Below are positions 6,423-61,771 of a stretch of 64,000 nt of DNA, piece after piece. The translations under genes were made by a program, and so were the position numbers. The DNA lies in the NCBI RefSeq assembly GCF_009730915.1, contig NC_052476.1, positions 20,255,257 to 20,319,256 of the forward strand, in the 5' to 3' direction. The notes under the pieces are model-generated. The model searched no databases. It was not told the origin of the DNA and worked only from the letters and a program-made list of their open reading frames with translations. The stretch's first letter is position 1. Each line of letters begins with the position of its first letter. This stretch comes from Dioscorea cayenensis subsp. rotundata. Lineage: Eukaryota > Streptophyta > Magnoliopsida > Dioscoreales > Dioscoreaceae.

Positions 6423-6428
<6 letters not shown>

Positions 6429-7299: not shown

Positions 7300-7314
7300 T
7301 AATAATAATAAAAA

Positions 7315-7345: not shown

Positions 7346-7347
<2 letters not shown>

Positions 7348-22699: not shown

Positions 22700-22761
22700 C
22701 ATTTGTCCCTTTGGGCGGGCACGACGTCCTGATTCCTTTCTCTCTTCAGCGGCTCCGCCGG

Positions 22762-22801
<40 letters not shown>

Positions 22802-35299: not shown

Positions 35300-36050
35300 T
35301 AAATGGAATGATATTTAAGAAATATAAAAGAAGAATTATGGGAAGATACCGAGAAATCTAAACTATGATACATTTGATTAGTATTAATTATTGTTGTTAT
35401 TATTGGTAAAGAAGATTAATTAATTAATTAATTATTCTCGGAGTTGTAAATCAAATGCTCTAGTCTGTGCACATACTCCGAATTTTGGAAGCTCTTGTTC
35501 CCATGATTCTTTGGTTAAATGACCATCTTACCCCTCTTTTCATTTGGAGTACTAATATTAATTGCTAATTACTCATATTATTAAATATTTTGGTTTATAA
35601 AAAATATTCATGAGTTTAGTTTATTCGGTTGGTATAGTTATTTTATTTTGGATGGTAAATTTTTAGATTTTTTTTAATAATTAACCAAAGCTTACCTACC
35701 TATTAAAAAAAAATATAAACCGTAATATTTCCTCCGGTCTTTTTTTTACTTGTATATTTTAACAAATTCATATAGATTAAGAAAGTTAGTTAAAATTAGT
35801 TGGTAATTTAAAATTTATAAAAAATTATATTAACTTTCCAAGATTACTCTAATTTAAAATATGATTTAATAAAATATGTAGTTGAATATAATTTTTTAAA
35901 AGTTGTAAAAGTAAATTAAATATAAAGATAAATTTTAAAAAAATAATATTTAATGTTTCATAAATTTTCTAGATGGACAAATAAGAAAGATAAAAAGCTT
36001 CTCAAATTAGACCGAAGAAAGTATAAAAAAATAAAATATAAACAATCATG

Positions 36051-36434
36051 TGTAGTGGATTATTAGTAGAATGGTGAATATGTAAACCTAAGGTCGAATC
36101 CTTGGGGTTGGCTGTACTATTGCAACACAGTGAGATACTGTAGAATCACGGTATATTATTGAGATAATTATTGGGATAATGTCATTTTCATTCTTTTTAG
36201 AGTTGCATGATATATAATTTATTAGCTCATTTCTAAAAATCTCGTGGGTGTGCACATAGTATGACTTTAATCGCACGTGGTATGAGATGTCTGACAAGTT
36301 AATATATTTGTAGAGGATCGATAAGCCATAGTAATTAGTGCACCATTGTACTCACCTGTCATTAACAACTCTTTTGTAAAAGCCGCGCTTATTGTCTTTA
36401 TAAAAAAAAATAAAAGAATAATAAAAAAAAAAAA
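36051..36434 (+). mobile_element. SINE-like element with poly-A tail (left copy)
   Basis: A tRNA-like head (GTAGTGGATTATTAGTAGAATGG, then GGTCGAATCC as a good box B) is followed by about 250 bases of unrelated body (GTGGTATGAGATGTCTGAC, CACCTGTCATTAACAAC) and a broken A-rich tail at about 36400-36434. Size and layout fit a plant tRNA-derived SINE. No clear target duplication was found, so the call is tentative. Confidence 0.4.
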
Positions 36435-36589
36435 GATGACCATGATATACTATATATATATATTTGTAAAAATTTTTGGAGGGGTTTAAACAAGTAAGCT
36501 ACCATCTTCATCCGAGGTGAAGTGTAATATGTGAAAATAAGAATAAAAATAAAAATGTTATATAATTTTATTATTTTACAGGGTCGAAT

Positions 36590-36835
36590 CCACAAAAAGG
36601 TTGGCCCAAATCGATTGTATTTGGGCCATATCAATCGGCTCGTAATACTTTGGGCCCAATAACTTGATAATTCCTAATTTTATTATATACATCTCTCAAA
36701 ATCACTTCCGTCCTTCAACTTCGTTCCTAATTCGAGAAAATCTCCAAAACCCTAACCCTAATTCGTTCCATTTTTCCCTCAAACCCTAGAAATCATCCTC
36801 TAATGGCTTCTCAGCATCCAAAATCTTTGGTTTAG
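36590..36835 (+). promoter_or_regulatory. Cyclin-L promoter: site II motifs, telo-box and a 10-codon upstream ORF (left copy)
   Basis: Three GGCCCA/TGGGCC site II motifs lie within about 55 bases (36602-36656). A telo-box follows (AAACCCTAACCCTAA, about 36747-36761). This pair is typical of promoters active in dividing cells, as in ribosomal protein genes. A short upstream ORF (ATG at 36803, stop TAG ending 36835, 10 codons) precedes the main start at 36943. The same layout is kept in the right copy. Confidence 0.6.
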
Positions 36836-36942
36836 TGGGTTGGGTTTCTTGTGAATTTGGTGTTTTTTTTTTTTGTTTTTTTTTTTTTTTATTTTTTTAT
36901 TTTCGGAAGAGATTGTCTCGATTTTTGCCTTGGCCGATTGGG

Positions 36943-39900
36943 ATGATCTACACTGCGATCGATACGTTTTACCTCACGGATGAGCAGTTGAAGAACTCGC
37001 CGTCGCGGAAGGATGGCATTGATGAGGCCACGGAGACCACGCTGAGGATCTATGGGTGTGATCTCATCCAGGAGAGCGGAATTCTTCTCAGATTGTATCT
37101 TTTTTTTTTTAATTATTCTTTGTGTTTCTTGGATTCTTTGGTTGATTGAGAATGGATATTGTCTTCAAATTTTATCTTTTTCCTCCTTTGATTGGTTTTC
37201 TTGACAATGATAAGGCCTCAAGCTGTGATGGCAACTGGGCAGGTACTCTTTCATCGATTTTATTGCAAGAAATCGTTTGCCCGTTTCAGTGTTAAGGTAA
37301 AAAATGTCATCTTTTTCTTTTTTTCTTTTTTCTTGGTATTTATGTTCATAGGATTTGGGATTTGAATTGATTGGTAGATAAGCTTTGTTGCAGAGGGTTG
37401 CCGCAAGCTGTGTGTGGTTGGCTTCGAAGTTGGAAGAGAGTCCTAGGAAGGCAAAGCAAGTTATCATCGTGTTCCATAGGATGGAGATCCGCAGGGAGAA
37501 TTTGCCACTTGAATATTTAGATGTCTTCTCTAAGGTTGATATGTTCTCCCGGTTGATTTTATACACTTGTTGAGTTTTATGTTCTTTCCCAAGTAGTATG
37601 ATTTGCTTTTTTTAGCATTGATTAGACTGCAAAAGATTTTTTTGACTTGTTTTACTTTTTACCACTGTTCGCATGTTTTCTGTTCAAAAATTTTTGCAGT
37701 ATGAATTCTGTAGTTGGGATAATTGCTTGTTTCGATTGTGTCTGTTCTTTTTTTTTTCTTTCTTATTAAGCTGTCATCCTTCTTTGATTTTTTTCTTGAT
37801 AACAGAAGTACTCTGAGTTGAAGAATGATCTGATCAGAACAGAGCGACATTTGCTTAAGGAGATGGGTTTCATCTGCCATGTTGAACATCCTCATAAGTT
37901 CATATCCAACTACCTTGCAACACTTGGAACCCCGACAGAGTTGAGACAGGAAGCTTGGAACTTAGCCAATGACAGGTAATGTATCATTCAGTGTGTTATA
38001 TCATAGCTTCTAATTAACATTTGATACTGTTCCATTGTTTTGCTAGTTGATTATTGATATCACTCTTCAATATTTCAACAGCTAAATTTTTTAAGTGTTC
38101 TTATTGTGGGTAGCAGGCTTGCAGTTGCCCATTGTTTATTTTAATTTTATTCTATGCCTTATGGCCAACTTTGGAAATAGTTGCTGGACCTTGATGAGTG
38201 ATATGGTGCAGATTGAGGTGTTGGATGACTTTTCTTTTATCTTTTTCTTGAGGTGGTTGCGATGTTCAGATATTGTTATTTAGTTCTTCTAGTTCTGATA
38301 TTGGTATCATGACAATATTCTGCTTTCAATCTATGTATGCTTATGCTACTTAATAATCATTTCAAATAATCTTTTATATGCTTGAATGAAAAGTAAACAT
38401 CATAATCTACTTGTAACCATTGATCATTTTTTAATTTTGGTTCGAAAATTCTTTTTCTTTACATTTGCTTTTCTTTGTCTACCATTTGTAGTGGCCTTAT
38501 GATATATCAAGAAAGGCAGTGAATATCTTCCTCCTTTTGTAAGTTATCCCACTTTTTTATATCAACCCTGATGCTAATCTCATGCACAGTAGGTAAATAG
38601 AAAGGGAGCAAAATGAGTGATCTGGCTTTTTTTTCCTCTTTTTTTTTTAATCTTTTTGTAACTGTTGGATCATCTCTCTTGCAGTCAACCTTTGTTCGGT
38701 GGTTTTTGAGTCCCTAAGTAAAATTATTTCTGCAGCTAACCATGCTTTCGGTTATCCTGGTGATGTTTACTGTTTATGTGAAAAATCTTCAGTTTATGTT
38801 CTCATAATAATGGAAAGTTCGTGTCTCATTTATATCTTTTCTTGCTGGCAAAGGCACCTTTTCGTTGTTGGAAATTATTTGTTCATTTTATCTCTTGATG
38901 CTTGTTTCATATTATGTAGTTTGCGGACCACTCTCGTGTTCGATTCAAGAGTGAAGTGGTAGCATGTGGGCGTGAGTATATGCAGCAGCTCGTCGGTTCC
39001 AGGTACCACTCCCTGAAAATCCACCATGGTGGTTAGTCTTTGATGCAGATCTCTCGGCATGCAAGAGGTTTGCAGAGTCCTCACAGATCTCTACAGTCTT
39101 CCGAAAGCACAATATATTGCAGTATACAAAGACAATGATTCCTTCACATCAACTAATAAAAATCAAGATCCCCAAGCTCAAGCATCTAAGGTAGCTTATA
39201 TATTGCATTCAGGTCCTTTTATTGTTATAACAAAATGGAACATTATTGTAGATGTAATTGCGATATATGCCTAAAATATGTTGATCCTGATTATTTAGGA
39301 AACTCTGTCTAACGGTGGTGGAAATGATAATGGCACTCCGAACTTGGTAGCTGATAATCAAGATGACAGCTCATCTAAAGATGTGTTATTGAAAGCAGCC
39401 CTAGACAAGTTGGAGTCGAAGAAAATTGATGATGATACTACCAAAAGTGTGGCTGCTGAAGACGATACTAAAGAGGAGCCAGTTGCAAAACCCAAGGGTG
39501 ATCAGAAATCTGATGCTAACATGGAAAAAAACCGGGATAGAGAAAGGGAAAGATCTAAAGCTAGAGATCGTGATGGCAGGGGTAGAGACTCGGATCGTGA
39601 CAGCAGAGGTAGAGATTCTGACAGGGACCGGGAACGAGAGAAGGATCCTGAGCGGGATAGAGAAAAGGCCAAAGAGAGGAGTCACCGTGCAAAGGACAAG
39701 AGTACAGGTATAAACTAGGAATCTATCTATGTTAGACCTTTGATTGTTATGATGGAAAGAAGAAAACCTATAATTAGGTTTTCGGGATGTTTTCGTAATG
39801 AAAACTTTATTACTTTAATATAAAATTCTATATTTTCCCTTTGAAAGAAAGATGATTATCCTCCCCATCTATATATTGATGTAGTTTGCCAATTTAAGAA

Positions 39901-40512
39901 AACTTATCTTTATATTCATTTCTTTTGTCAATCTAGAAAAAGAATCGTTTAAACAATATTTATTTCTTTTCCAATCGAAGAAAAACTTGTCCATGTAGTG
40001 ATTTTTTCTTCACCAATTTAAGAAGACCATGCTATATATATATATATATATTATGCCAATCCTAGAAAAACTTGTCATCTAGCAATTTGTTTGGTTTGAC
40101 ATTCTAAGAGAAACCTGTTGTTTATGTGCTTTTTCATTTTGCCAATTTAAGAAATTCTTGTCATCTATCTATTTATTACTTATGCCAATCTAAGAAAAAC
40201 TTGTTTATTTATTTATTTCTTTTGCAAATATATAAGAAAAGAAACTTGTTTTCTTAGCATGGTGTCGTCTTTGATGTCATATGCCTCTTAATTATGCAGG
40301 GCATCCGGAGAAATCCCGGCATCATTCATTGCGAGGTATGTGCAACATCTCTTAACAATAATGAAAGTCAGTCAAGTCATTCTTCAAGATAGCTCAGTTA
40401 AGTGATATTGCTCTATTCTGAAAATTTTTTTCCTTGTTTTGCAGAACGCAGTGAATACCACAGCTCACACTCATACCGTGACAAGGATCGACACAGACAC
40501 CACTATACATGA
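36943..40512 (+). CDS. CYCL1: Cyclin-L (arginine-rich cyclin), left copy, exon 5 disturbed by one-base indels
   Basis: Partner of CDK11/CDKG-type kinases in pre-mRNA splicing and transcription, in the nucleus. Exons: 36943-37094, 37215-37296, 37394-37534, 37806-37975, 38920-39190, 39299-39707, 40300-40335 and 40445-40512, the same sizes as in the right copy. Start MIYTAIDTFYLTDEQL and the cyclin boxes are typical. The C-terminus is a long RS-like domain of Arg-Asp, Arg-Glu and Arg-Ser dipeptides ending YRDKDRHRHHYT. Compared with the right copy, exon 5 has four one-base indels (two near 38935, 38970-38976, and one near 39056) that sum to zero. The frame is wrong across the second cyclin box and then restored. 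It also reads LTDLYSL where the right copy and the family read LAHLYSL. This is either sequence error or a decaying copy. Confidence 0.88.
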
Positions 40513-41396
40513 AATAAAAGGCAGTTTTGTCCTTTGTAACGTGTAAACAAGTAATATTTGCATCATCGATGATCGTGGTGAGATGATGAAAAATACCGAC
40601 CTTTTGTTTATGTGATTATTGTTGAATACTCAAATCAACTGTATCACATTTAGCTTTTGATGATAGTTTTATTGTTGAATACCCAAATTATCTGTATCAT
40701 GCCTATCTTTTGATGATAGTTTTTTTTTTAATACCGAAATTAACTGTATCTCTTTTGTGATAATGTTCAACTAAGGAAAGCTTGCATAGCATTTTGTTTC
40801 GTTTTTTTAGCAGGATGGTGAATTATACTTGGAATATGTTTGGATAACTTTTAAGCAGGATGAAGAATTACTCGGAATATGTTTGAATGATCTTTCTTTT
40901 ATTTGTTGTAGGATGAATTTTTTTTTATGTTGATGATTGAGCTTGGAATGTCTTTGGATGATACTTTTGTTGCAAGATGAAGTGAAATGTTGATTTGGTT
41001 TGCTTTTTAGTTTGTTGGGTTGTTTGTGATTAATGGTTTTTTGTTTATATAATAGTTTTTTATTTTAAAGAACTTATAATAAAAAGCTATTATTTATGGT
41101 TTTCAGCTGAGTTATGTTGTAATTTTCCTTTCCATAGAGAATAAAATTTAAATTTGATTTATTAATTTCTATTGGAAAGAAGTATAAATAGATTAAATAT
41201 TAACTAATTTACTTTATTTTCATGGAAATGACACTTCAATAATCCTAAGCAAATCATGCAATAATAACTCATACTTAAAGCACAAATTAAGCATTCCTTT
41301 TTTTTATTATCTACAAAGGAAACATACAAGAAAAGCACATTGTTCCAAAGTACTGATGGAACAAAAGCTGTTAACATAGATTCATTAGTGAGTGAT
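40513..41396. other. 3' regions between convergent cyclin-L and dismutase (left copy)
   Basis: AT-rich, no gene. Contains near-tandem repeats such as TTTTGATGATAGTTTTATTGTTGAATAC and GGATGAAGAATTACTCGGAATATGTTTG-type phrases, probably within the cyclin-L 3' end. The same sequence is present at 58426-59305. Confidence 0.5.
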
Positions 41397-42454
41397 TCAT
41401 TCTTGAAGCCCAATGATACCTGAAAATTTGACAAATATTTCATCGAAAAGGCGAAAATAATCAATCCATTGATCAAGAAAAACATGTGGAAATTCATTAG
41501 CATAGAAATGATATATTTGAAATTAAATGAATTAATGAATAAATGTGTTTACAGGGAAGCAAGGAACAAACCACATGCAACTCTTGCTCCTGCATTTCCG
41601 GTGGTCTTGCTAAGCTCATGTCCACCTGTGAAAAGCCGGAAAAAAAAAAACATGAAATGCATCCTGGTTTAGTCTGTAGAAATCTGAATGAGTAAACCAT
41701 CAAGAGGATATATAGAATGATAAATCATGCAAACTAGAATTTATCAAGAATTCTAGCAGGTTTAAGAGACGTGCAATTCCTTTATCTTTAGGTCATTCCT
41801 GAGTCGAGAACTGGGTTTCTTAATCAACCTTTTACTTCATATGATTTGGCGGAGTAAACAGTTTGCGAAACATAAACTCTTTTTTTTTTTTTACAAAATG
41901 GACGAGTTACATCAGAGACGTGCATAAACGTGGAGTTACTGCTTTAACATATATGTGCTATCATCTTGTGTGCGCTGAGATTCGAACCGGTTTTCTCAAC
42001 AGGACATGAACGCTCTACACAAGAAACATGATATCACTAACCCATATGTACTCTCATCTTGTGTGAGCTGAGATTCAAACCAGTCTTCTAAACAAGACAT
42101 GGACACTTTGCACAAGAAATTTGATGTCGATAGAAAGTGATTGTTGGACACAAAACATGACTACAGTACATTTAATGCTACAAAGATGAAATTTTCTATC
42201 ACAATCAATAAAGGAAAGGAGAGCTCTTGTGGTATATTAACAACAGAGAATAATAAAAAGAACATAGTAATTTACCAATCACACATAAATCACTTGATAT
42301 CACAGAGATAAGACTCAAAAACATAGATGTAAAAACTAAGTTACTGCTTACCATTTCCTAGATCATCTGGATCAGCATGAACAACAACTGCCCTTCCAAT
42401 TATCGAATTCGGCACCGAAACAGGAATTTGAGGAAGTAAACATAAACCAAGGAC

Positions 42455-42486
<32 letters not shown>

Positions 42487-42875
42487 GTATGTATAATTCA
42501 AGAATTGGGAAACAAACAGAAGAAGAGGAACATTAAGAACAACAACAAAGCACCTGGCTGTCAAAAATTGTAAAACTAGCAGTCACTGACACAAAAATAT
42601 TATGCAAACAAAGATTAAAATGATTCATATATTGAAGGAAACAAATACCATCATCACCAGCAATCACATTTCCAAGATCACCGGGATGCCGAATCTCATC
42701 TTCAGGTGCCACATGATCCTTCCCAGAAGGATTAAAATGTGGTCCTAAATCATAAACAGAAATAAACTAACACAAATTATTCAAACAACAAAGATTAAAA
42801 AACAATAGAGCACAGTACCAGTGGACATGCAGCCATTGGTGGTAGCATGAACATGGAAACCATGAAGTAATAATT
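41397..42875 (-). pseudogene. Truncated Cu/Zn superoxide dismutase, left copy
   Basis: Exons in order: about 42875-42819 (LHGFHVHATTNGCMSTG), 42744-42649 ([17 protein letters not shown]...GDLGN), 42585-42554 (SFTIFDSQ), 42427-42352 ([19 protein letters not shown]), 41625-41572 (GGHELSKTTGNAGARVACG) and 41419-41397 (IIGLQE, stop). Metal ligands are visible: HxH in FHVH, His in GPHFNP, KDH and IRHPGD, Asp in GDLGN, His in VVVHAD; also the active-site Arg in NAGARVACG. Missing: the first 45 or so residues, replaced upstream by a minisatellite, and three residues (usual ALGDTTNG is ATTNG here). The acceptor before IPVSVPNS reads CAA instead of CAG, so this exon cannot splice normally. Cytosolic or peroxisomal CSD origin is likely; function is not. 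Confidence 0.85.
41897..42130 (-). mobile_element. SINE-like sequence, tandemly duplicated, in a dismutase intron (left copy)
   Basis: Read on the minus strand, each of two units of about 100 bases holds an A-box-like TGTGTAGAGCGTTCATG and, some 30 bases on, a box B (CCGGTTCGAATCTC in one, CTGGTTTGAATCTC in the other). This spacing is that of a tRNA gene, so the units probably derive from a tRNA-headed SINE. The same pair sits at 59795-60030 in the right copy, so it predates the duplication. Confidence 0.5.
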
Positions 42876-43672
42876 TCAGATCAAATTGTGAATCAAAATT
42901 GTTAGGAATTAAGATTACAAGTAGCAATTAGGATTGTGTCTGATGGAATTGAGTACCAAAATTGTTAGGAATTAGAACATAAATTGATATTACATGTAGT
43001 AATTATGTTTAAATTGAGAAACACTTCCATTAATAGTGATTGCTTTGTTCCTTCACATGCTTGTAGTGACTTAAGATGGAAATGAGAACCAAAATTGTAA
43101 GGAATCAGAACAAAATCAATATTAGATGTAGACTATGTAGTAATTAGGCTTAAGTTCAGAAACACTTCTATTTATAGTGGTTAGTTTGTTTTTTCACATG
43201 CATAATGATTTCAGATGGAATTGAGAACCAAAATTGTTAAGAATCAAAACCAAAATCAATATTACATGTAGTAATTAGGCTCAAGTTCAGAAACACTTTC
43301 ATCTATAGTTTTTTGCTTTGTTCCTTCACATGCTTGTAGTGACTTAAGATGGATATGAGAACCAAAATTGTTAGGAATTGGAACAAAAATCAATATTACA
43401 TAAAGTGATTAGGTTTAAAGTTGAGAAACACTTCCATTTATAGTGCTTAATTTGTTCTTTCATAAGCATAGTGATTTCATATGGATATGAGAACCAAAAT
43501 TGTAAGGAATTAAAACAAAAATTAAGTTTGCATGTAGAAATTGGGTTTAGATGGATTTGAGAACAAAGCTGGTTAGAAATTAGAACACAAATTGCCAGGA
43601 ATTAGAACAAAGGTTAAAGATCACAACATACATGCAGTGATTATTCAAATGGAATTGAGAATAATATTGACA
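42876..43672. repeat. Minisatellite of about 134-bp units (left copy)
   Basis: Units begin near 42945, 43079, 43217, 43351 and 43483 (spacings 134, 138, 134, 132). Each opens GGAATTGAGAACCAAAATTG and ends near CTTAAGATGG or TTTCAGATGG. Shorter broken units flank them (about 42880 and 43553-43672). Neighbouring units differ by roughly 15-20 percent by eye. The array starts directly at the broken end of the dismutase exon. Confidence 0.85.
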
Positions 43673-43737
43673 ATATTATTAAGTTCACATATTTTACTCA
43701 ATTTAAATTTAATTTGTTTAATTTTGACAATATAAGA

Positions 43738-44068
43738 TGTGAGAGGATTTTAAAATTGAAAAGATATTAATGTAATAAGCACCACTTGTAAGACAACTAA
43801 TGAGAGCTTATCATTTGTAATTTCATTAATTAATGAATGATTATTTTATTCTATTTGAAAAGATGTCTAATTAATGAAATAGTGTCTCATTAGTAAAGTG
43901 GTGTGTCTATGAAATAATGTGTCATTTTATTGAAGTGGTATAATGAAATGATGTGTCTTTTTAAATGACACTCATTATTGAAGTGGTGTGTCTCTTTACT
44001 AAACACCACTTCATTCCTATAAAAATAATCTCCTATCATCATTCAAGTCAATTGAATGAAAACAAACT
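43738..44068 (+). mobile_element. LTR fragment of an LTR retrotransposon, cut by the assembly gap
   Basis: Starts TGTGAGAGG exactly where the match to the right copy ends (shared ...ATATAAGA), so this is an insertion point; the right copy shows the empty site. A TATA-like CCTATAAAAATAATC followed by CATCATTCAAGTC near 44015-44050 resembles an LTR promoter. The remainder of the element lies in the unsequenced gap. Probably Copia-type or a TRIM; family not resolved. Only this end is present, so wholeness cannot be judged. Insertion is younger than the split of the two copies. Confidence 0.6.
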
Positions 44069-45068
44069 NNNNNNNNNNNNNNNNNNNNNNNNNNNNNNNN
44101 NNNNNNNNNNNNNNNNNNNNNNNNNNNNNNNNNNNNNNNNNNNNNNNNNNNNNNNNNNNNNNNNNNNNNNNNNNNNNNNNNNNNNNNNNNNNNNNNNNNN
44201 NNNNNNNNNNNNNNNNNNNNNNNNNNNNNNNNNNNNNNNNNNNNNNNNNNNNNNNNNNNNNNNNNNNNNNNNNNNNNNNNNNNNNNNNNNNNNNNNNNNN
44301 NNNNNNNNNNNNNNNNNNNNNNNNNNNNNNNNNNNNNNNNNNNNNNNNNNNNNNNNNNNNNNNNNNNNNNNNNNNNNNNNNNNNNNNNNNNNNNNNNNNN
44401 NNNNNNNNNNNNNNNNNNNNNNNNNNNNNNNNNNNNNNNNNNNNNNNNNNNNNNNNNNNNNNNNNNNNNNNNNNNNNNNNNNNNNNNNNNNNNNNNNNNN
44501 NNNNNNNNNNNNNNNNNNNNNNNNNNNNNNNNNNNNNNNNNNNNNNNNNNNNNNNNNNNNNNNNNNNNNNNNNNNNNNNNNNNNNNNNNNNNNNNNNNNN
44601 NNNNNNNNNNNNNNNNNNNNNNNNNNNNNNNNNNNNNNNNNNNNNNNNNNNNNNNNNNNNNNNNNNNNNNNNNNNNNNNNNNNNNNNNNNNNNNNNNNNN
44701 NNNNNNNNNNNNNNNNNNNNNNNNNNNNNNNNNNNNNNNNNNNNNNNNNNNNNNNNNNNNNNNNNNNNNNNNNNNNNNNNNNNNNNNNNNNNNNNNNNNN
44801 NNNNNNNNNNNNNNNNNNNNNNNNNNNNNNNNNNNNNNNNNNNNNNNNNNNNNNNNNNNNNNNNNNNNNNNNNNNNNNNNNNNNNNNNNNNNNNNNNNNN
44901 NNNNNNNNNNNNNNNNNNNNNNNNNNNNNNNNNNNNNNNNNNNNNNNNNNNNNNNNNNNNNNNNNNNNNNNNNNNNNNNNNNNNNNNNNNNNNNNNNNNN
45001 NNNNNNNNNNNNNNNNNNNNNNNNNNNNNNNNNNNNNNNNNNNNNNNNNNNNNNNNNNNNNNNNNNNN
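44069..45068. other. Assembly gap of exactly 1000 N
   Basis: A run of exactly 1000 N, the usual placeholder for a join of unknown length between contigs. Apparent open frames across it are artefacts. Confidence 0.99.
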
Positions 45069-50690: not shown

Positions 50691-51095
50691 GAAGACATGT
50701 TGTCGTCGTTCGAATGAGAAGTTCTCGACTCAACATGAGTCTCTGTGTAAGCGTCGAGCTTTTTATGTTTAAACGTATACATATAGTGTTTAAAATAACG
50801 GTTAATCTGTTTAACTAAAGTCTATATCATGTAAATAATATGTTATTGTTTAAATTGAATGCTTTCATCTGACAATAGCGTTGCTAGATGGGTACCTCCT
50901 GGGTCACTTTGTTTTAAACATATTTACGTATTTTCTTAAACACCGTTGTCGTTGTTTAAAGAGTAACTTGAGTATTGTTTTAACTTTTTCTATTGTTTAC
51001 AATGACGTTTTTTTGTTTCCCACATTGTTTTTACTAGGGCTCTGTTTAAATTTTCGAAGTTCACAGTCAAAATACGATTGTTTCGTTTTATTTAT

Positions 51096-51180
51096 AAAAG
51101 ATTTACAACATTTACAACATTTTACAAAGATTTACAACATTTTACGACATTCTGAATTCTAGACATTTACAACATTTACT
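51096..51180. repeat. Short tandem array of TTTACAACA units
   Basis: TTTACAACA or close variants occur about seven times within 85 bases, partly interrupted by TCTGAATTCTAGA. It lies between the two diverged direct repeats. Confidence 0.75.
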
Positions 51181-52122
51181 GACGTCCGCTCGGACTTTGG
51201 ACGCTCACGACTCGACCCTGGTATAGCGAAACAAGTGTATGCATGCGTTCGAATGCTCACAGCGGTTGCATAACAAGCGCATCAACTTGAACTGCAAAGA
51301 CGTCATGACATTAAAAAAAGGTTAAACAACACACGTTCATGAAAAAGCGACTATTAATCGATATGTCGTGGTAGGGACTTAAAGCGACGATCGATAGTTA
51401 AACGCGAGCGTAACGAGTTGATACATCTGACGTCGTTTTCTTAAAGCGTTAACGAGAAAGTCTCGAGTGGTAAATGTCAATCCCAGTCTTTAAAGGATGT
51501 TTCAGCTGATCTCCCTCCTCTAGAGAATCCTCATGATCACGCATGATATGTGAAAACTTTTCTTTTCATACCCAAGTCGAAATGCTCTCTTAATTGCTTT
51601 CCGTCAGTCCATCACTGGAGAATCCTCTGCGTTCGAGGGCGATTATGAGGAGGGACTTCGGCAGGCGAAAAAGATAGTTTAACTGGTTCGATGATTACGG
51701 CTGGTGATTCTCAAGATAAGGGAAGAAGGCTCACGAAACATCCTTTCGGATAGAGTGGTTGTCCGTGGGAAGAGGAGGAAGAGGAGGAGGATGATGAGGA
51801 CGACGAGGGTGGTTGTCCATGTAGGGAGGGTTCTTCCCAGTTGTTATGGTGTGAAGTCCACGGCGGTGACTCTTCGTGTCCAGAAAAAGTTAAACGCACT
51901 ACGATGGCGAGCATTGGCGATGAGAGCGAGCGGGTGTTCGGAAATTTATGTTCTCGTGCATAAGAATTAATCCGGTCATTAATTCTTACGCAGCGGGATA
52001 CCTAACTCTTGCCACTGCCACGTGCCACATGCCAACAATTCGGATCAAGCGAAAAAGATCACCGTTTCTGAGAGACTTTTGAGAATTTACGCGTTTATGA
52101 ATAGTTATACATGTAAAGATAA

Positions 52123-52640
52123 TGTTAAAGCGGAGATGGGAAGTATTAAAGCGGATATGACAATTATTAAACATATTAGTAAAAATATTTAAAGCGGATA
52201 ATAGCAAATAGTTAAACATTATTTAAAAATATACAAATAGATAACCATAAACGAGGAAGAACTTTACAACGAAAATGAACTCGTCAGTAATTCTTGTTCT
52301 TCTCGTCGTAATACAACTTTACAACCATAAGCGAGAAGACGACAATGGCACATGCTCTGCCTCGACAGATAAAATCGACTACATCTCGTTTGAAGATGAA
52401 GTGCACTTGACCAATCCGATGGAAATCAATTTCATTTTTACGTTAGAAAGCAGAGTTTATATATTTCGGGTATGATAATGAGGAGAATAACAAGATGTAA
52501 TGTAACTCCTTGGCATTGTCTATCGAAACCGCAGAAAGCCCTGAAAGGTTGAACACGTGATGTGATTTGGCGCTTTCCTTTCCCACCATTTTTCGGGAGG
52601 GCCAAAAATGGGATTTCAGACATGGACCCATTTGAAGTGA
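52123..52640 (+). repeat. Diverged direct repeat, unit 2, inside the CpG-rich element
   Basis: Shares with 49976-50690, in the same order, GTTAAAGCGGAGA, TTTACAACGA, AATGGCACAT, GATAAAATCGACTAC, TTTGAAGATGAAGTG, ATCCGATGGAAATCAA and GTGATGTGATTTGGCG. Same orientation, about 2.15 kb apart. It lies near the right end of the element, so unit 1 may mark an internal copy of that end (nesting or partial duplication). Confidence 0.6.
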
Positions 52641-53100
52641 GCAGTAGGGGGTAAAGGGAAGTTAAACACTATGGAAGAATCGTCCGGTGGTGTGTAAAAG
52701 TAGGAGAGGGTTTTTGGGAAGTTTTGAAAATTACGAGGGGTGAACAGTAATTTTCCCTAAATGGAATGATATTTAAGAAATATAAAAGAAGAATTATGGG
52801 AAGATACCGAGAAATCTAAACTATGATAAATTTGATTAGTATTAATTATTGTTGTTATTATTGATAAAGAAGATTAATTAATTAATTAATTATTCTCGGA
52901 GTTGTAAATCAAATGCTCTAGTCTGTGCACATACTCCGAATTTTGGAAGCTCTTGTTCCCATGATTCTTTGGCTAAATGACCATCTTACCCTCTTTTTTA
53001 TTTAATATTAATTGCTAATTACTCTTATTATTATATATTTTGTTTTATAAAAAAAATATTCATAGTTTATTCCGTTGGTATAGTTAATTCATTTTTGAAT

Positions 53101-53625
53101 AGGTTTCCCGAATAACGTGGATGCCCAACTTGTCATCCACATCCTCATCCACGTCATTATTTTTTTTATATAAACTTCAAATTTGAACCTTAAAAATTTT
53201 TAAATATTTAAAATTTAAAAAAAAATTATAGAATTATATCTAAAATCATAAACCCAAATACTACAAAATCTATACCGTAAAAATCTAAAAATTTAAACCC
53301 TAAATAATAAATACTAAATCCTAAACTTTAAGCTCTAAACCTTAAACCATAAATCCTATGCCATAAACCCTAAACTCTAAATCCCATGCCCTAACCCCTA
53401 AACAAGAAATCACAAACCCCCTGCCGGAGTTTGTGATTTCCAGTTTAGGGTTTAGGGAGGGGTTTTTGGTTTATCATTTACATATTTATATTTTACTATT
53501 AAATGTTTAAATTTAGTATTTAGATAATAAAAAGAAATTTAATTTTTTTTATAAAAAAATAAAGAAAGAATGACGTGGATGCTGACATGGATGCCAACTT
53601 GACATCCACGTCATTCGGGAAATCT
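53101..53625. mobile_element. MITE of about 525 bp with telomere-like core, present only in the right copy
   Basis: Left end AGGTTTCCCGAATAACGTGG and inverted right end AGATTTCCCGAATGACGTGG agree at 18 of 20 positions, with further inverted matches inward (GTGGATGCCAACTTG types). The left copy has no insertion at the matching place. The interior at about 53285-53460 is full of degenerate CCCTAAA units on this strand, turning to TTTAGGG at about 53445-53460, a telomere-like inverted core. No ORF. Superfamily unclear (possibly Mutator- or hAT-like); the target duplication could not be read with certainty. Confidence 0.75.
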
Positions 53626-54020
53626 ATTTGGTAAAAATATCATTACTTATAATTAACCAAAGCTTACCTACTTATTAAAATAATTTAAACCGTAATATTT
53701 CTTCCAGTCTTTTTTTACTTGTACATTTTAACAAATTCACATAGATTAAGAAAGTTAGTTAAAATTAGTTGGTAATCTAAAATTTATAAAAAATTATATT
53801 AACTTTCCAAGATTACTCTTATTTAAAATATGATTTAATAAAATATGTAGTTGAATATAATTTTTTAGAAGTTGTAAAAGTAAATTAAATATAAAGATAA
53901 ATTTTTAAAAATAATATTTAATGTTTCATAAATTTTCTAGATGGACAAATAAGAAAGATAAAAAGCTTCTCAAATTAGACCGAAGAAAGTATAAAAAAAA
54001 AATAAAATATAAACAATCAT

Positions 54021-54347
54021 GTGTAGTGGATTATTAGTAGAATGGTGAATAAGTAAATCTAAGGTCGAATCCTTGGGGTTGGCTGTACTATTGCAACACT
54101 GTGAGACATTGTAGAATCACGGTATATTATTGGGGTAATGTCATTTTCTTTTTTTATTAGCTCGTTTCTAAAAATCTCGTGGGTGTGCACGTAGTATGGC
54201 TTTAATCGCACGTGGTATGAGATGTCTGACAAGTTAATATATCTGTAGAGAATTGATAAGCCATGGTAATTAGTGCACCATTGTACTCACCTGTCATTAA
54301 CAACTCTTTTGTAAAAGCCACGCTTATTGTCTTTATTAAAAAAAAAA
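54021..54347 (+). mobile_element. SINE-like element with poly-A tail (right copy)
   Basis: Counterpart of 36051-36434 with the same tRNA-like head (GGTCGAATCC box B), a shorter body (about 55 bases fewer near 54130-54160) and a shorter A tail. Confidence 0.4.
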
Positions 54348-54457
54348 TGACCATGACTTAATCAATATAATATACTATATATATATTTGTAAAAATTTTT
54401 GGAGGGGGTTTGAACAAGTAAGCTACCATCTTCATCCGAGGTGAAGTGTAATATGTG

Positions 54458-54510
54458 AAAATAAAAATAAAAATAAAAATAAAAATAAAAATAAAAATAA
54501 AAATAAAAAT
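54458..54510. repeat. (TAAAAA)n microsatellite, expanded in the right copy
   Basis: About nine AAAATA-type units against about three at the matching place in the left copy (near 36537-36556). Confidence 0.85.
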
Positions 54511-54529
54511 GTTATATAATTTTATTATT

Positions 54530-54789
54530 TTACAGGGTCGTATCCACAAAAAGGTTGGCCCAAATCCATTGTTTTTGGGCCATATCAATCGGCTCGTAAT
54601 ACTTTGGGCCCAATAACTTGATAATTCCTAATTTTATTATATACATCTCTCAAAATCACTTCCGTCCTTCACCTTCGTTCTTTATTCGAGAAAATCTCAA
54701 AAACCCTAACCCTAATTCGTTCCATTTCTCCCTCAAACCCTAGAAATCATCCTCTAATGGCTTCTCAGCATCCAAAATCTTTGGTTTAG
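54530..54789 (+). promoter_or_regulatory. Cyclin-L promoter: site II motifs, telo-box and upstream ORF (right copy)
   Basis: GGCCCA/TGGGCC motifs at about 54557-54612, telo-box AAACCCTAACCCTAA at 54701-54715, and the same 10-codon upstream ORF (54757-54789) ahead of the start at 54890. Retention in both copies says little about selection, as the copies are recent. Confidence 0.6.
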
Positions 54790-54889
54790 TGGGTTGGGTT
54801 TCTTGTGAATTTGGTGTTTTTTTGTTTTTTTGTTTTTATTTTTTTATTTTCGGAAGAGATTGTCTCGATTTTTGCCTTGGCCGATTGGG

Positions 54890-57800
54890 ATGATCTACAC
54901 TGCGATCGATACGTTTTACCTCACGGATGAGCAGTTGAAGAACTCGCCGTCGCGGAAGGATGGCATTGATGAGGCCACGGAGACCACGCTGAGGATCTAT
55001 GGGTGTGATCTCATCCAGGAGAGCGGAATTCTTCTCAGATTGTATCTTTTTTTTTTTTAATTATTCTTTGTGTTTCTTGGATTCTTTGGTTGATTGAGAA
55101 TGGATATTGTCTTCAAATTTTATCTTTTTCCTCCTTTGATTGGTTTTCTTGACAATGATAAGGCCTCAAGCTGTGATGGCAACTGGGCAGGTACTCTTTC
55201 ATCGATTTTATTGCAAGAAATCGTTTGCCCGTTTCAGTGTTAAGGTAAAAAAATGTCATCTCTTGGTATTTATGTTCATAGGATTTGGGATTTGAATTGA
55301 TTGGTAGATAAGCTTTGTTGCAGAGGGTTGCCGCAAGCTGTGTGTGGTTGGCTTCGAAGTTGGAAGAGAGTCCTAGGAAGGCAAAGCAAGTTATCATCGT
55401 GTTCCATAGGATGGAGATCCGCAGGGAGAATTTGCCACTTGAATATTTAGATGTCTTCTCTAAGGTTGATATGTTCTCCCGGTTGATTTTATACACTTGT
55501 TGAGTTTTATGTTCTTTCCCAAGTAGTATGATTTGCTTTTTTTAGCATTGATTAGACTGCAAAAGATTTTTTTGACTTGTTTTACTTTTACCACTGTTCG
55601 CATGTTTTCTGTTCAAAATTTTGCAGTATGAATTCTGTAGTTGGGATAATTGCTTGTTTCGATTGTGTCTGTTCTTTTTTTTTTTCTTTCTTATTAAGCT
55701 GTCATCCTTCTTTGATTTTTCTTGATAACAGAAGTACTCTGAGTTGAAGAATGATCTGATCAGAACAGAGCGACATTTGCTTAAGGAGATGGGTTTCATC
55801 TGCCATGTTGAACATCCTCATAAGTTCATATCCAACTACCTTGCAACACTTGGAACCCCGACAGAGTTGAGACAGGAAGCTTGGAACTTAGCCAATGACA
55901 GGTAATGTATCATTCAGTGTGTTATATCATAGCTTCTAATTAACATTTGATACTGTTCCATTGTTTTGCTAGTTGATTATTGATATCACTCTTCAATATT
56001 TCAACAGCTAAATTTTTTAAGTGTTCTTATTGTTGGTAGCAGGCTTGCAGTTGTCCATTGTTTATTTTAATTTTATTCTATGCCTTATGGCCAACTTTGG
56101 AAATAGTTGCTGGACCTTGATGAGTGATATGGTGCAGATTGAGGTGTTGGATGACTTTTCTTTTATCTTTTTCTTGAGGTGGTTGTGATGTTCAGATATT
56201 GTTATTTAGTTCTTCCAGTTCTGATATTGGTATCATGACAATATTCTGCTTTCAATATATGTATTCTTATGCTACTTAATAATCATTTCAAATAATCTTT
56301 AATATGCTTGAATGAAAAGTAAACATCATAATCTACTTGTAACCATTGATCATTTTTTTAATTTGGTTCGAAATTACATTTGCTTTTCTTTGTCTACCAT
56401 TTGTAGTGGTCTTATGATATATCGGGAAGGCAGTGAATATCTTCCTCCTTTTGTAAGTTAGCCCACTTTTTTATATCAACCCTGATGCTTATCTCATGCA
56501 CAGTAAGTAAATAGAAAGGGAGCAAAATGAGTGATCTGGCTTTTTTTCCTCTTTTTTTTTAATCTTTTTGTAACTGTTGGATCATCTCTCTTGCAGTCAA
56601 CCTTTGTTCGGTGGTTTTTGAGTCCTTCAGTAAAATTATTTCTGCAGCTAAACATGCTTTCGGTTATCCTGGTGATGTTTACTGTTTATGTGAAAAATCT
56701 TCAGTTTATGTTCTCATAGTAATGGGAAGTTAGTATCTCATTTATATCTTTTCTTGCTGGCAAAGGCACCTTTTCGTTGTTGGAAATTATTTGTTCATTT
56801 TATCTCTTGATGCTTGTTTCATATTATGTAGTTTGCGGACCACTCTCTGTGTTCGATTCAAGAGTGAAGTGGTAGCATGTGGCGTGGTATATGCAGCAGC
56901 TCGTCGGTTCCAGGTACCACTCCCTGAAAATCCACCATGGTGGTTAGTCTTTGATGCAGATCTCTCTGGCATGCAAGAGGTTTGCAGAGTCCTCGCGCAT
57001 CTCTACAGTCTTCCGAAAGCACAATATATTGCAGTATACAAAGACAATGATTCCTTCACATCAACTAATAAAAATCAAGATCCCCAAGCTCAAGCATCTA
57101 AGGTAGCTTATATATTGCATTCAGGTCCTTTTATTGTTATAACAAAATGGAACATTATTGTAGATGTAATTGCGATATATGCCTAAAATATGTTGATCCT
57201 GATTATTTAGGAAACTGTGTCTAACGGTGGTGGAAATGATAATGGCACTCCGAACTTGGTAGCTGATAATCAAGATGACAGCTCATCTAAAGATGTGTTA
57301 TTGAAAGCAGCCCTAGACAAGTTGGAGTCGAAGAAAAATGATGATGATACTACCAAAAGTGTGCCTGCTGAAGACGATACTAAAGAGGAGCCGGTTGCAA
57401 AACCCAAGGGTGATCAGAAATCTGATGCTAACATGGAAAAGAACCGGGATAGAGAAAGGGAAAGATCTAAAGCTAGAGATCGTGATGGCAGGGGTAGAGA
57501 CTCGGATCGTGACAGCAGAGGTAGAGATTCTGACAGGGACCGGGAACGAGAGAAGGATTCTGAGCGGGATAGAGAAAAGGCCAAAGAGAGGAGTCACCGT
57601 GCAAAGGACAAGAGTACAGGTATAAACTAGGAATCTATCTATGTTAGACCTTTGATTGTTATGATGGAAAGAAGAAAACCTATAACTAGGTTTTCTTGAT
57701 GTTTTCGTAATGAAAAATTTATTACTTTAATATAAAATTCTATATGTTCCCTTTGAAAGAAAGATGATTATCCTCCCCATCTATATATTCATGTAGTTTG

Positions 57801-58425
57801 CCAATTTAAGAAAACTTATCTTTATATTCATTTCTTTTGTCAATCTAGAGAAAGAATCGTTTAAACAATATTTATTTCTTTTCCAATCAAAGAAAAACTT
57901 TTGATTTTTTCTTCACCAATTTAAGAAGAACATGCTGTCTATATATATATTATGTATATATATTATGCCAATCCAAGAAAAACTTGTCATCTAGCAATTT
58001 GTTTGGTTTGACATTCTAAGAAAAACTTGTTGTTTATGTGCTTTTTCATTTTGCCAATTTAAGAAATTCTTGTCATCTATCTATTTATTACTTATGCCAA
58101 TCTAAGAAAAACTTGTTTATTTATTTATTTCTTTTGCAAATATATAAGAAAAGAAACTTGTTTTCTTAGCATGGCGTCGTCTTTGATGTCATATGCCTCT
58201 TAATTATGCAGGGCATCCGGAGAAATCCCGGCATCATTCATTGCGAGGTATGTGCAACATTTCTCTTAACAATAATGAAAGTCAGTCAAGTCATTATTCG
58301 AGATAGCTCAGTAAGTGATATTGCTCTATTCTGAAAATTTTTTTCCTTGTTTTGCAGAACGCAGTGAATACCACAGCTCACACTCATACCGTGACAAGGA
58401 TCGACACAGACACCACTATACATGA
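54890..58425 (+). CDS. CYCL1: Cyclin-L (arginine-rich cyclin), right copy, intact
   Basis: Eight exons: 54890-55041, 55163-55244, 55324-55464, 55732-55901, 56832-57102, 57211-57619, 58212-58247 and 58358-58425. All junctions are GT-AG and in phase, giving 442 residues, the usual size for plant cyclin-L. Residues 1-51 open with MIYTAIDTFYLTDEQL. The first cyclin box follows (VLFHRFYCKKSF, RVAASCVWLASKLEESPRKAKQ, HLLKEMGFICHVEHPHKFI) and then the second (LRTTLCVRFKSEVVACGVVYAAARR, PWWLVFDADLSGMQEVCRVLAHLYSLP). Residues from about 340 form an RS-like domain that directs cyclin-L to splicing speckles. The fourth intron is the longest (930 bases) and holds a possible cassette exon. Its 3' neighbour is the dismutase relic on the other strand. 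Confidence 0.95.
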
Positions 58426-59305
58426 AATAAAAGGCAGTTTTGTCCTTTGTAACGTGTAAACAAGTAATATTTGCATCATCGATGATCGTGGTGAGATGAT
58501 GAAAAATACCGACCTTTTGTTTATGTGATTATTGTTGAATACTCAAATCAACTGTATCACATTTAGCTTTTGATGATAGTTTTATTGTTGAATACCCAAA
58601 TTATCTGTATCATGCCTATCTTTTGATGATAGTTTTTTTTTTTTTGAATACCGAAATTACCTGTATCTCTTTTGTGATAATGTTCAACTAAGGAAAGCCT
58701 GCATAGATTTTGTTTTGTTTTTTTAGCAGGATGGTGAATTATACTTGGAATATGTTTGGATAACTTTTAAGCAGGATGAAGAATTACTCGGAATATGTTT
58801 GAATGATCTTTCTTTTATTTGTTGTAGGATGAATTTTTTTTTATGTTGATGATTGAGCTTGGAATGTCTTTGGATGATACTTTTGTTGCAAGATGAAGTG
58901 AAATGTTGATTTGGTTTGCTTTTTAGTTTGTTGATTTGTTTGTGATTAATGGTTTTTTGTTTATATAATAGTTTTTTATTTTAAAGAACTTATAATAAAA
59001 AGCTATTATTTATGGTTTTCAGCTGAGTTATGTTGTAATTTTCCTTTCCATAGAGAATAAAATTTAAATTTGATTTATTAATTTCTATTGGGAAGATGTA
59101 TAAATAGATTAAATATTAACTAATTTACTTCATTTTCATGGAAATGACACTTAAATAATCCTAAGCAAATCATGCAATAATAACTCATACTTCAAGCACA
59201 AATTAAGCATTCCTTTTTTTTATTATCTACAAAAAAAAACATACAAGAAAAGCACATTGTTCCAAAGTACTGATAGAACAAAAGCTGTTAACATTAGTGA
59301 GTGAT
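58426..59305. other. 3' regions between convergent cyclin-L and dismutase (right copy)
   Basis: Counterpart of 40513-41396, AT-rich, with small substitutions and T-run length changes. No gene seen. Confidence 0.5.
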
Positions 59306-60341
59306 TCATTCTTGAAGCCCAATGATACCTGAAAATTTGACAAATATTTCATCGAAAAGGCGAAAATAATCAATCCTGTGATCAAGAAAAACATGTGGAA
59401 ATTCATTAGCAAAGAAATGATATATTTGAAATTAAATTAATTAATGAATAAATGTGTTTACAGGGAAGCAAGGAACAAACCACATGCAACTCTTGCTCCT
59501 GCATTTCCGGTGGTCTTGCTAAGCTCATGTCCACCTGTGAAAAAGCCGGATACATGAAATGCATCCTGGTTTAGTCTGTAGAAATCTGAATGAGTAAACC
59601 ATCAAGAGGATATATAGAATGATAAATCATGCAAACTAGAATTTATCAAGAATTCTAGCATGTTTAAGAGATGTGCAATTCCTTATCTTTAGGTCATTCC
59701 TGAGTTGTGAACCGGGTTTCTTAATCAACCTTTTACTTCATATGATTTGGAGGAGTTGCCAGTTTGCGAAACATAAAACTTTTTGGGACAAAATGGACGA
59801 ATTACGTCAGAGGCATGCATAAGCGTGGAGTTACTGCTTTTAACTGCATATGTCTCTATCATCTTGTGTGCTGTTGAGATTCGAACCGGGTTTTTCTCAA
59901 TGAGGCATGAACAGCTCTACGCGAAAAAGCATGATATCAGCTACGCATATGTCTATCTCTACGTGCTGTGTGGTGAAATTCAAATCAGGTCTTACAAAGC
60001 AAGACATGGACACTTTGCACAAGAAATTTGATGTCAATAGAAAGTGATCGTTGGACACAAAACATGACTACAGTACATTTAATGCTACAAAGATATCACA
60101 ATCAATAAAGGAAAGGAGAGCTCTTGTGGTATATTAACAACAGAGAATAATAAAAAGAACATAGTAATTTACCAATCACACATAAATCACTTGATATCAC
60201 AGAGATAAGACTCAAAAACATAGATGTAAAAACTAAGTTACTGCTATGTTCATCTGGATCAGCATGAACAACAACTGCCCTTCCAATTATCGAATTCGGC
60301 ACCGAAACAGGAATCTGAGGAAGCAAACATAAATCAAGGAC

Positions 60342-60382
<41 letters not shown>

Positions 60383-60763
60383 AATTCAAGAATTGGGAAA
60401 CAAACAGAAGAAGAGGAACATTAAGAACAACAACAAAGCACCTGGCTGTCAAAAATTGTAAAACTAGCAGTCACTGACACAAAAATATTATGCAAACAAA
60501 GATTAAAATGATTCATATATTGAAGGAAACAAATACCATCATCACCAGCAATCACATTTCCAAGATCACCGGGATGCCGAATCTCATCTTCAGGTGCCAC
60601 ATGATCCTTCCCAGAAGGATTAAAATGTGGTCCTAAATCATAAACAGAAATAAACTAACACAAATTATTCAAACAACAAAGATTAAAAAACAATAGAGCA
60701 CAGTACCAGTGGACATGCAGCCATTGGTGGTAGCATGAACATGGAAACCATGAAGTAATAATT
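59306..60763 (-). pseudogene. Truncated Cu/Zn superoxide dismutase, right copy
   Basis: Exons as in the left copy: about 60763-60707, 60632-60537, 60473-60442, 60314 to about 60250, 59534-59481 and 59328-59306. The same N-terminal truncation and the same three-residue gap after the HxH motif are present, so these defects are older than the split. Here the acceptor before IPVSVPNS is intact (CAG). The end of that exon with its donor (the GATCTAGGAAATG plus GTAAGC of the left copy) has lost about 14 bases, so VVVHADPDE runs on into intron sequence. Each copy has thus lost a different splice signal around the same exon. Not expected to make an active enzyme. Confidence 0.85.
59795..60030 (-). 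mobile_element. SINE-like sequence, tandemly duplicated, in a dismutase intron (right copy)
   Basis: Counterpart of 41897-42130; box B reads CCGGTTCGAATCTC on the minus strand in the first unit and is degraded in the second. A frame of about 80 residues on the plus strand across it is accidental. Confidence 0.45.
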
Positions 60764-61700
60764 TCAGATCAAATTGTGAATCAAAATTGTTAGGAATTAA
60801 GATTACAAGTAGGAATTAGGATTGTGTCTGATGGAATTGAGTACCAAAATTGTTAGGAATTAGAACATAAATTGATATTACATGTAGTAATTATGTTTAA
60901 ATTGAGAAACACTTCCATTAATAGTGATTGCTTTGTTCCTTCACATGCTTGTAGTGACTTAAGATGGAAATGAGAACCAAAATTGTGAGGAATCAGAACA
61001 AAATCAATATTAGATGTAGACTATGTAGTAATTAGGCTTAAGTTCAGAAACACTTCTATTTATAGTGGTTAGTTTGTTTTTTCACATGCATAATGATTTC
61101 AGATGGAATTGAGAACCAAAATTGTTAAGAATCAAAACCAAAATCAATATTACATGTAGTAATTAGGCTCAAGTTCAGAAACACTTTCATCTATAGTTTT
61201 TTGCTTTGTTCCTTCACATGCTTGTAGTGACTTAAGATTGATATGAGAACCAAAATTGTTAGGAATTAGAACAAAAATCAATATTACATAAAGTGATTAG
61301 GTTTAAAGTTGAGAAACACTTCCATTTTGTTAGGGAATACAGCTGTGTATACAGCTGTATATCTATATTTGTATAGCTACCTTATTTATATAACTGTGTA
61401 TCTATATATACCTTGTACATTGTAGGTTTTGTGTTAATGAAAAATTGTTTAATCTTTTCAACCTAACACATTTATAGTGCTTAATTTGTTCTTTCATAAG
61501 CATAGTGATTTCATATGGATATGAGAACCAAAATTGTAAGGAATTAAAACAAAAATTAAGTTTGCATGTAGAAATTGGGTTTAGATGGATTTGAGAACAA
61601 AGCTGGTTAGAAATTAGAACACAAATTGCCAGGAATTAGAACAAAGGTTAAAGATCACAACATACATGCAGTGATTATTCAAATGGAATTGAGAATAATA
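60764..61700. repeat. Minisatellite of about 134-bp units (right copy), interrupted by a solo LTR
   Basis: Same unit order as 42876-43672. The unit that starts near 61240 is split by the solo LTR at 61328-61468. Confidence 0.85.
61328..61468. mobile_element. Solo LTR, 141 bp, with 5-bp target duplication
   Basis: Starts TGTTAGGGAATAC and ends CAACCTAACA, with matching inverted tips TGTTAG/CTAACA. Flanked on both sides by CATTT (61323-61327 and 61469-61473). The left copy has the empty site with one CATTT. The small size suits a TRIM-type or small Copia-type family. Only the LTR remains, the usual result of recombination between the two LTRs. It inserted after the two copies separated and is therefore young. 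Confidence 0.85.
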
Positions 61701-61771
61701 TTGACAATATTATTAAGTTCACATATTTTACTCAATTTAAATTTAATTTGTTTAATTTTGACAATATAAGA

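Follow-up and report, generated by a model that had tools for sequence, protein, structure and literature searches.

The window analysed here, a 64-kb stretch of plant DNA, holds twice a block with a cyclin-L gene and a Cu/Zn superoxide dismutase (SOD) remnant, and the question is whether this represents a tandem duplication or two alleles of a single locus laid end to end at a scaffold join. Self-comparison of the window revealed collinear copies in direct orientation, on the forward strand, at 35300-43737 (copy 1, near the end of contig 1) and 52758-61771 (copy 2, near the start of contig 2); two collinear copies in the same orientation are also what a segmental tandem duplication looks like. 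The matching segment pairs are 35300-35652 with 52758-53098 and 35677-43439 with 53649-61327, followed by 303 bp of 100% identity between 43435-43737 and 61469-61771. The copies never lie on one contig: between them, at 44069-45068, is a gap of exactly 1000 N, the single N run in the window. The one other gap that we saw, C4:14089922-14090921, is likewise exactly 1000 N long, so that the earlier note's description of a block doubled around a gap of fixed size is borne out; no duplication was found when the flanks of that other gap were read, which counts against an allelic origin of the pair.

Copy 1 and copy 2 differ at 236 of 8275 aligned sites (2.85%), or at 181 of 7894 (2.29%) without a divergent patch at 41800-42190 where 55 of 381 sites differ; part of these mismatches is misaligned simple sequence, and 64 are isolated SNPs. 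From a box-B motif, we take the patch to be SINE-like. The isolated SNPs are unevenly spread: of 5000 uniform placements, 100 had a variance per 400 sites at least as large. The mismatch level of about 2.3% and this uneven spread may speak for alleles, as does the fact that the assembly keeps a redundant sequence of the locus (contig C1296, see below). The divergence is nevertheless higher than the heterozygosity of 0.6-1.6% given for four genomes in PMC7203741.

The copies had been described as matching through introns, spacers, repeats and exons, which needs a qualification for two insertions that are confined to copy 2. The first is a hairpin MITE of about 526 bp (53099-53627, forward strand); a query with 52800-54800 gave 167 matches, and most of those listed (the best 40 of 1919 candidates) fall in the MITE part. 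The second is a 141-bp solo LTR (61328-61468, forward strand) flanked by the 5-bp duplication CATTT, the site of which is empty in copy 1, near 43434. This LTR has 38 other matches at 95-100% identity, including five pairs about 5 kb apart.

The right edge of copy 1 is the start of another LTR (43738-44068, forward strand), which begins with TGTGAGAGGA, breaks copy 1 and continues into the gap, with contig 1 ending inside it, 331 bp past copy 1. Among the best 40 of 198 candidates, 17 of the 38 other family matches start exactly at 43738 and 25 start within 43737-43740, the remainder starting 3 to 48 bases to the left (7 matches) or 11 to 60 bases to the right (6 matches). All five members inspected begin with TGTGAGAGGA and show four distinct upstream flanks, one of which is common to two members; among the same best 40 candidates, two pairs of matches about 5.1 kb apart, on C2 and C13, suggest that full elements of this family are present elsewhere in the assembly. 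Copy 2 continues across the point that matches 43738, within a different dispersed repeat, which locus L015 on C1 likewise has on both sides of this point (window 61726-61869, 83%); therefore, copy 1 is interrupted at this position and the homology once ran on.

The left edge of copy 2 is the right end of a dispersed element of about 9.6 kb, the retained part of which occupies 45069-52757 (forward strand). Contig 2 starts inside this element, and 1.85 kb of it is lost in the gap. A query with 46000-48800 gave 81 matches, itself included, among the matches listed (the best 40 of 2135 candidates). The member on C4 matches 45069-52758 and stops there, the member on C17 stops at 52761, and the identical right terminus was found before other flanks, with copy 1 carrying the insertion site without the element. 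The ends are short imperfect inverted repeats, AG[TG]G[GA]AAATT; of the two members inspected for a target duplication, the one on C17 has a 9-bp duplication in A-rich DNA and the one on C4 has none. Pfam revealed no transposase in 10 of the 17 frames of at least 90 aa in 45069-52757, and the one paper that a literature search listed for 12 bases of its terminus is unrelated; the element is MULE-like by its ends, yet we do not file it as a MULE. Two other identities of these inner 7.7 kb were considered and rejected: the inner part of the LTR element that starts at 43738, since the window contains no second copy of that LTR, and plasmid contamination, since there was no plasmid match at the near setting and part of the sequence belongs to a family dispersed in this genome.

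Both inner edges are accordingly insertion points of unrelated mobile DNA, as the earlier note had it (LTR start at 43738, element end at 52757/52758), and because they are, no duplication breakpoint is visible. The tested outer flanks proved to be single-copy, again in agreement with the earlier note. The left flank on the RopGAP side (33300-35299) has no second match in the 584-Mb assembly except five short ones, and the right flank on the SPP side (61772-63990), which contig 2 enters from the block without an N, has none except short repeats (best 40 of 129 candidates).

These observations are most readily accommodated by a single locus with the order RopGAP, cyclin-L, SOD remnant, SPP on two haplotypes, and we consider it probable that the two blocks are its alleles. 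On haplotype 1, an LTR element would have inserted to the right of the block, and on haplotype 2, the 9.6-kb repeat would have inserted to its left; assembly of the first haplotype would have stopped in the LTR and that of the second would have begun inside the repeat. The scaffolder would then have ordered both contigs with a 1000-N placeholder between them, so that the shared 8.4-9.0 kb was kept twice. If overlapping haplotypes were retained where a scaffold was joined, two contigs that both stop in dispersed repeats would be expected. Under this scenario, we infer that the copies are allelic and the join artificial. Among the points against it, neither tested outer flank shows a second allele, which indicates that the assembly is collapsed near the block, and no exact match was found in the assembly to the junction that the copy-2 insertion should have at its left end. 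The search for this junction found 16 places with one or two mismatches, compared to 2 in the control; L047, one of four such places inspected, corresponds to the left terminus of a related element (about 71%) and has no similarity to window positions 33-35.7 kb.

The main alternative is a genuine tandem duplication spanning 8.4 kb or more, in which the cyclin-L gene of copy 1 is decaying while that of copy 2 was kept, and in which the spacer, uncrossed by the assembly, consists of the LTR element and at least the 9.6-kb element, perhaps together with the left part of C1296. We regard both this history and such a spacer as unlikely. That both copies share a scaffold and an orientation, between tested flanks that are single-copy, speaks for duplication. 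Nevertheless, neither visible edge is a breakpoint, and because both are insertions, both real breakpoints must fall in the gap; the copies never share a contig, and nowhere is the right end of one copy seen joined to the left end of the next, although such a junction could lie inside the gap.

The state of the genes bears on the same choice. Cyclin-L of copy 1 (36943-40512, forward strand; 8 exons, 1329 bp) contains, as assembled, small indels in exon 5 (38920-39190), with frameshifts and three internal stops, whereas that of copy 2 (54890-58425, forward strand; 8 exons) is an intact frame of 442 aa. The copy-2 protein matches Cyclin_N at 9.4e-12, its top solved structures are Cyclin-L2 (6.6e-70) and Cyclin-L1 (1.3e-69), and its tail is Arg-rich; it is thus identified as a cyclin L, of which a cyclin fold nearest to that family and an Arg/Ser-rich tail are expected. 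The broken copy-1 frame is what a decaying true duplicate would have and in this respect counts against alleles, and the six nonsynonymous and three synonymous differences outside the frameshifted stretch also fit duplication. The frameshifts were rejected as proof of a decaying duplicate: a J-domain gene on contig 1 is likewise split over three frames within one DUF3444 domain, and because no second full-length close copy of that gene was found, a frameshift is no sure sign of decay on this contig. Sequence errors account for the broken copy-1 cyclin-L equally well. The SOD remnants (41567-42879 in copy 1 and 59476-60767 in copy 2, both on the reverse strand) lack the 5' part, and residues 1-36 of a plant SOD query have no match below E 1 in the window; compared to the same query, both copies share a 3-residue deletion, and copy 2 has in addition a 10-bp complex indel at a splice donor. 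Hence the cyclin-L/dismutase block of the earlier note comprises a cyclin-L gene that is intact in copy 2 only and a dismutase that is a truncated remnant in both copies. The proposal that a tandem duplication would mean two cyclin-L genes cannot be taken for granted, because even under duplication the copy-1 frame is broken as assembled.

The unplaced contig C1296 agrees with copy 2, not copy 1, at 37 of the 42 sites at which it tells the two apart (binomial p 4e-7, with neighbouring sites not being independent). Private changes number 5 of 2458 sites in copy 2, every one of them within or next to T-rich simple sequence, 37 in copy 1, some of them adjoining indels, and 159 in C1296. An old paralogue or outgroup was rejected as the identity of C1296, given that copy 2 is nearly devoid of private changes and that, in C1296, gaps are about as frequent as mismatches (85 gap openings and 80 mismatches against copy 2, compared to 16 and 35 between copies 1 and 2 under the same scoring). 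By its sequence, C1296 looks like the copy-2 haplotype in noisy form, with the gap-rich differences resembling sequencing noise; this argument is weakened by repeat pairs elsewhere that are also gap-rich, such as the C4 and C17 members (181 mismatches and 92 gap openings). To the left of its element, C1296 continues into other repeats and other sequence that match neither the window, the RopGAP side included, nor the 10 kb flanking it at each end. This far flank fits a duplication and counts against the simplest allele model.

The different left neighbour of C1296, together with its collinear skips (50698|51307, 51497|52423, 52697|54511), could also indicate that the contig 2 block was misplaced beside contig 1 or that the 9.6-kb repeat made contig 2 chimeric; being long and dispersed, this repeat is a likely place for a misjoin. 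We find such an error very improbable: the block continues into the single-copy SPP flank without N, and two contigs agree in having this element family upstream of cyclin-L, with order and orientation alike. The evidence is mixed as to whether the C1296 element is the same insertion as that of contig 2: by overall identity, it is nearer to the C4 member, but among sites that divide four element copies into two pairs, 40 group contig 2 with C1296, versus 24 and 20 for the other pairings. Altogether, the earlier suggestion of two alleles gains from the insertion edges, the single-copy tested flanks and the fixed gap, and loses from the left junction that was not found and from the left neighbour of C1296.

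The proposed retention of overlapping haplotypes where two contigs were joined resembles heterotype false duplication (Ko et al. 2022, PMC9516828; Rhie et al. 2021, PMC8081667). In the cases of these papers, divergent haplotypes are kept separately and genes are falsely doubled, as would be so here. False duplications are characterised, among other things, by a gap that separates the copies within one scaffold, also found here, and they contain more erroneous k-mers (PMC9516828). The published cases are from vertebrates and the class is defined there by depth, k-mers and linked reads, whereas the present case comes from a plant and from the assembled sequence. The heterozygous contig overlaps described by Guan et al. 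2020 (PMC7203741), where purge_dups removes retained overlaps between homologous chromosomes, similarly involve two contig ends that match over a chained interval; in contrast, the very contig ends here are unrelated insertions of 331 bp and 7.7 kb. These terminal insertions may have hidden the overlap from purging, and the locus suggests that overlaps with unrelated insertions at contig ends can persist in a finished assembly. If the scaffold were annotated as is, it would be credited with a second cyclin-L gene, broken in frame, and with a false gain; read as alleles, the pair would instead provide two haplotype sequences of one plant locus that are distinguished by four mobile-element differences within about 9 kb.

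Within the assembly (584,211,761 bases in 2249 contigs), the window corresponds to C6:20255257-20319256 and contains a single run of Ns, at 44069-45068. Comparison of the window with itself pairs the block at 35300-43737 (copy 1, on contig 1, left of the gap) with that at 52758-61771 (copy 2, on contig 2), as the earlier note had described. The copies differ at 236 of the 8275 aligned sites, a count that partly reflects misaligned simple sequence; with the patch at 41800-42190 excluded, 181 of 7894 sites differ (2.3%), and 64 of the differences between the copies are isolated SNPs, each flanked on both sides by eight matching bases. The divergence is uneven, with no mismatches over 772 aligned sites at 37330-38108 and 2.5-4.3% in the 200-column bins across 38.2-39.0 kb. 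The patch itself differs from its counterpart at 59701-60093 at 55 of 381 sites, against about 2.3% elsewhere, and includes a 93-bp repeat in copy 1 as well as what we take to be a SINE-like tRNA box-B motif.

Both inner edges of the doubled block coincide with insertions of mobile DNA, in agreement with the earlier note. The match of copy 2 to copy 1 begins at 52758, and the preceding DNA belongs to a dispersed family (at least 81 matches to the query 46000-48800, the window included, from the best 40 of 2135 candidates). A member on contig C4 matches 45069-52758 and ends there, and another, on C17, ends at 52761; the two share this terminus and then continue into different flanks. The element spans about 9.6 kb, and contig 2 starts about 1.85 kb into it. 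Its short, imperfect inverted ends have a MULE-like look, and, of the two members inspected, that on C17 is flanked by a 9-bp target duplication in A-rich DNA and that on C4 by none. Because no transposase was found in the 10 of 17 frames of at least 90 aa from the element segment that were compared with Pfam, the element is not classed as a MULE.

On the other side, copy 1 ceases to match copy 2 after 43737. When 43500-44068 was searched against the genome (the best 40 of 198 candidates), the matches were the window, copy 2 as far as the edge and 38 others, of which 17 start exactly at 43738 and 25 within 43737-43740; a further 7 start 3-48 bases to the left of 43738 and 6 start 11-60 bases to the right. 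All five members inspected start with TGTGAGAGGA, with four distinct upstream flanks, one of them common to two members, and position 43738 is thus the start of an LTR. Across the equivalent point, copy 2 lies inside another dispersed repeat that also spans it in a locus on C1 (61726-61869, 83%). Since both loci carry this repeat across the point, copy 2 is the uninterrupted form, and an LTR element, continuing into the gap, has inserted into copy 1 and interrupted it.

Two contigs that both end inside repeats, with the overlap kept in each and a placeholder of fixed size in between, are the picture that would be expected if two haplotypes of one locus had been placed end to end. The copies are probably two alleles, the reading that the earlier note favoured and the one to which we give most weight. 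A real tandem duplication, for which both true breakpoints would have to happen to fall inside the gap, appears rather unlikely, and misplaced or chimeric contigs very improbable; these weights are judgements, not computed values. Against the allelic reading, the one other readable gap has non-duplicated flanks (19.9 and 9.1 kb), and neither outer flank of the block has a second allele. The latter were reported to be unique and, short matches aside, proved so for the stretches searched: 33300-35299 matched itself and five short stretches, and 61772-63990 itself and 40 short stretches among the best 40 of 129 candidates. The right end of the window encodes a sucrose-phosphate phosphatase (S6PP, 1.7e-28); the gene on the left, initially read as RopGAP, matches RhoGAP weakly, with 16.7 bits where the cut-off is 24.5. 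Together with cyclin-L, these genes mark the DNA as that of a plant. A tRNA-Pro (AGG) gene lies at 29912-29983 on the minus strand.

The query 54800-57600 retrieved four candidates, all scored: copy 2, copy 1, the unplaced 24,605-bp contig C1296 and a 69% match on C20. C1296:14103-22078 belongs to the element family that precedes copy 2, and C1296:22081-24605 matches the cyclin-L block from 54511 to 57024 at 91%; over 14103-24605 (L009 and L010), C1296 shows collinear skips of 0.6, 0.9 and 1.8 kb against contig 2. At the junction, the element stops about 60 bp short of its end and the region upstream of cyclin-L follows. Of the 2458 sites compared across all three sequences, copy 1 alone differs at 37, copy 2 alone at 5 and C1296 alone at 159, and no two agree at 2 (p 4e-7 for 37 against 5, neighbouring sites not being independent). 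These counts suggest that C1296 represents the copy 2 haplotype in a very noisy form (under gap-friendly scoring, 80 mismatches with copy 2 and 85 gap openings). The assembly thus retains redundant sequence of the locus.

The left flank of C1296 counts against the allelic reading, which in its simplest form predicts sequence from the RopGAP side with the target duplication AAATGGAAT at its end; the observed flank end is different. With low complexity masked, neither the window nor the 10 kb on each side of it matches C1296:1-14102; of this part, 4501-7500 is a dispersed repeat, and 11001-14000 is partly dispersed repeat and partly without another match (best 40 of 3762 candidates). The predicted junction of the RopGAP side with the element has no exact occurrence in the assembly, and 16 places, four of them inspected, match with 1-2 mismatches, compared to 2 for a control. 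Either C1296 is misjoined inside the element, or haplotype 2 carries more inserted or rearranged DNA at this place, or the duplication is real.

Eight exons make up the 1329-bp coding sequence of cyclin-L in each copy, and exons 1-4, 7 and 8 (649 bp) are identical. The frame of copy 2 is intact, and its 442-residue product matches Cyclin_N, with cyclin-L2 and cyclin-L1 as the best solved structures. In copy 1 as assembled, exon 5 contains small indels and the frame is interrupted by three internal stops; beyond the damaged stretch, there are 6 nonsynonymous and 3 synonymous changes. The broken frame is another point against the allelic reading but does not necessarily signal a decaying duplicate. 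The J-domain gene at 25641-28558, on contig 1 outside the block, has its second DUF3444 domain divided among three overlapping frames (5-50, 53-137 and 145-210 of the model), by either sequence errors or gene breakage. With two contig 1 genes frameshifted, residual sequence errors explain the state of cyclin-L at least as well as decay, and both genes could be truly broken. In the genome, the only full-length match of the J-domain gene is itself; the rest are fragments or a C19 relative in three pieces (69-73%). Its pieces 26044-26301 and 26609-26793 (query 404-661 and 969-1153) are adjacent, without the intervening stretch, at C14:3370082, C6:4659427 and C14:6375223, and another pair of pieces lies on C20, as if a captured or retro-copied fragment had multiplied. 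The dismutase is a remnant of a Cu/Zn-SOD gene: when a plant SOD served as the query, its residues 1-36 matched nothing in the window below E 1, both copies lack three residues of the next exon, and copy 2 has also lost a splice donor. Immediately 5' of the remnant is a 132-bp tandem array (42942-43549), perhaps the point of truncation.

Copy 2 contains a hairpin MITE of about 526 bp that is absent from copy 1 (the query 52800-54800 has at least 167 matches, mostly in the MITE part among the matches listed, the best 40 of 1919 candidates) and a 141-bp LTR with the 5-bp duplication CATTT, the corresponding site in copy 1 being empty. Among at least 38 other matches of this LTR at 95-100% (best 40 of 248 candidates), five pairs lie about 5 kb apart, so that in copy 2 it is a solo LTR from a young family. 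The copies diverge beyond the heterozygosity of 0.6-1.6% given for the genomes in PMC7203741, which counts against the allelic reading. Together with about 2.3% mismatches, the four mobile-element differences within about 9 kb agree with two strongly diverged haplotypes and are compatible with an older duplication too.
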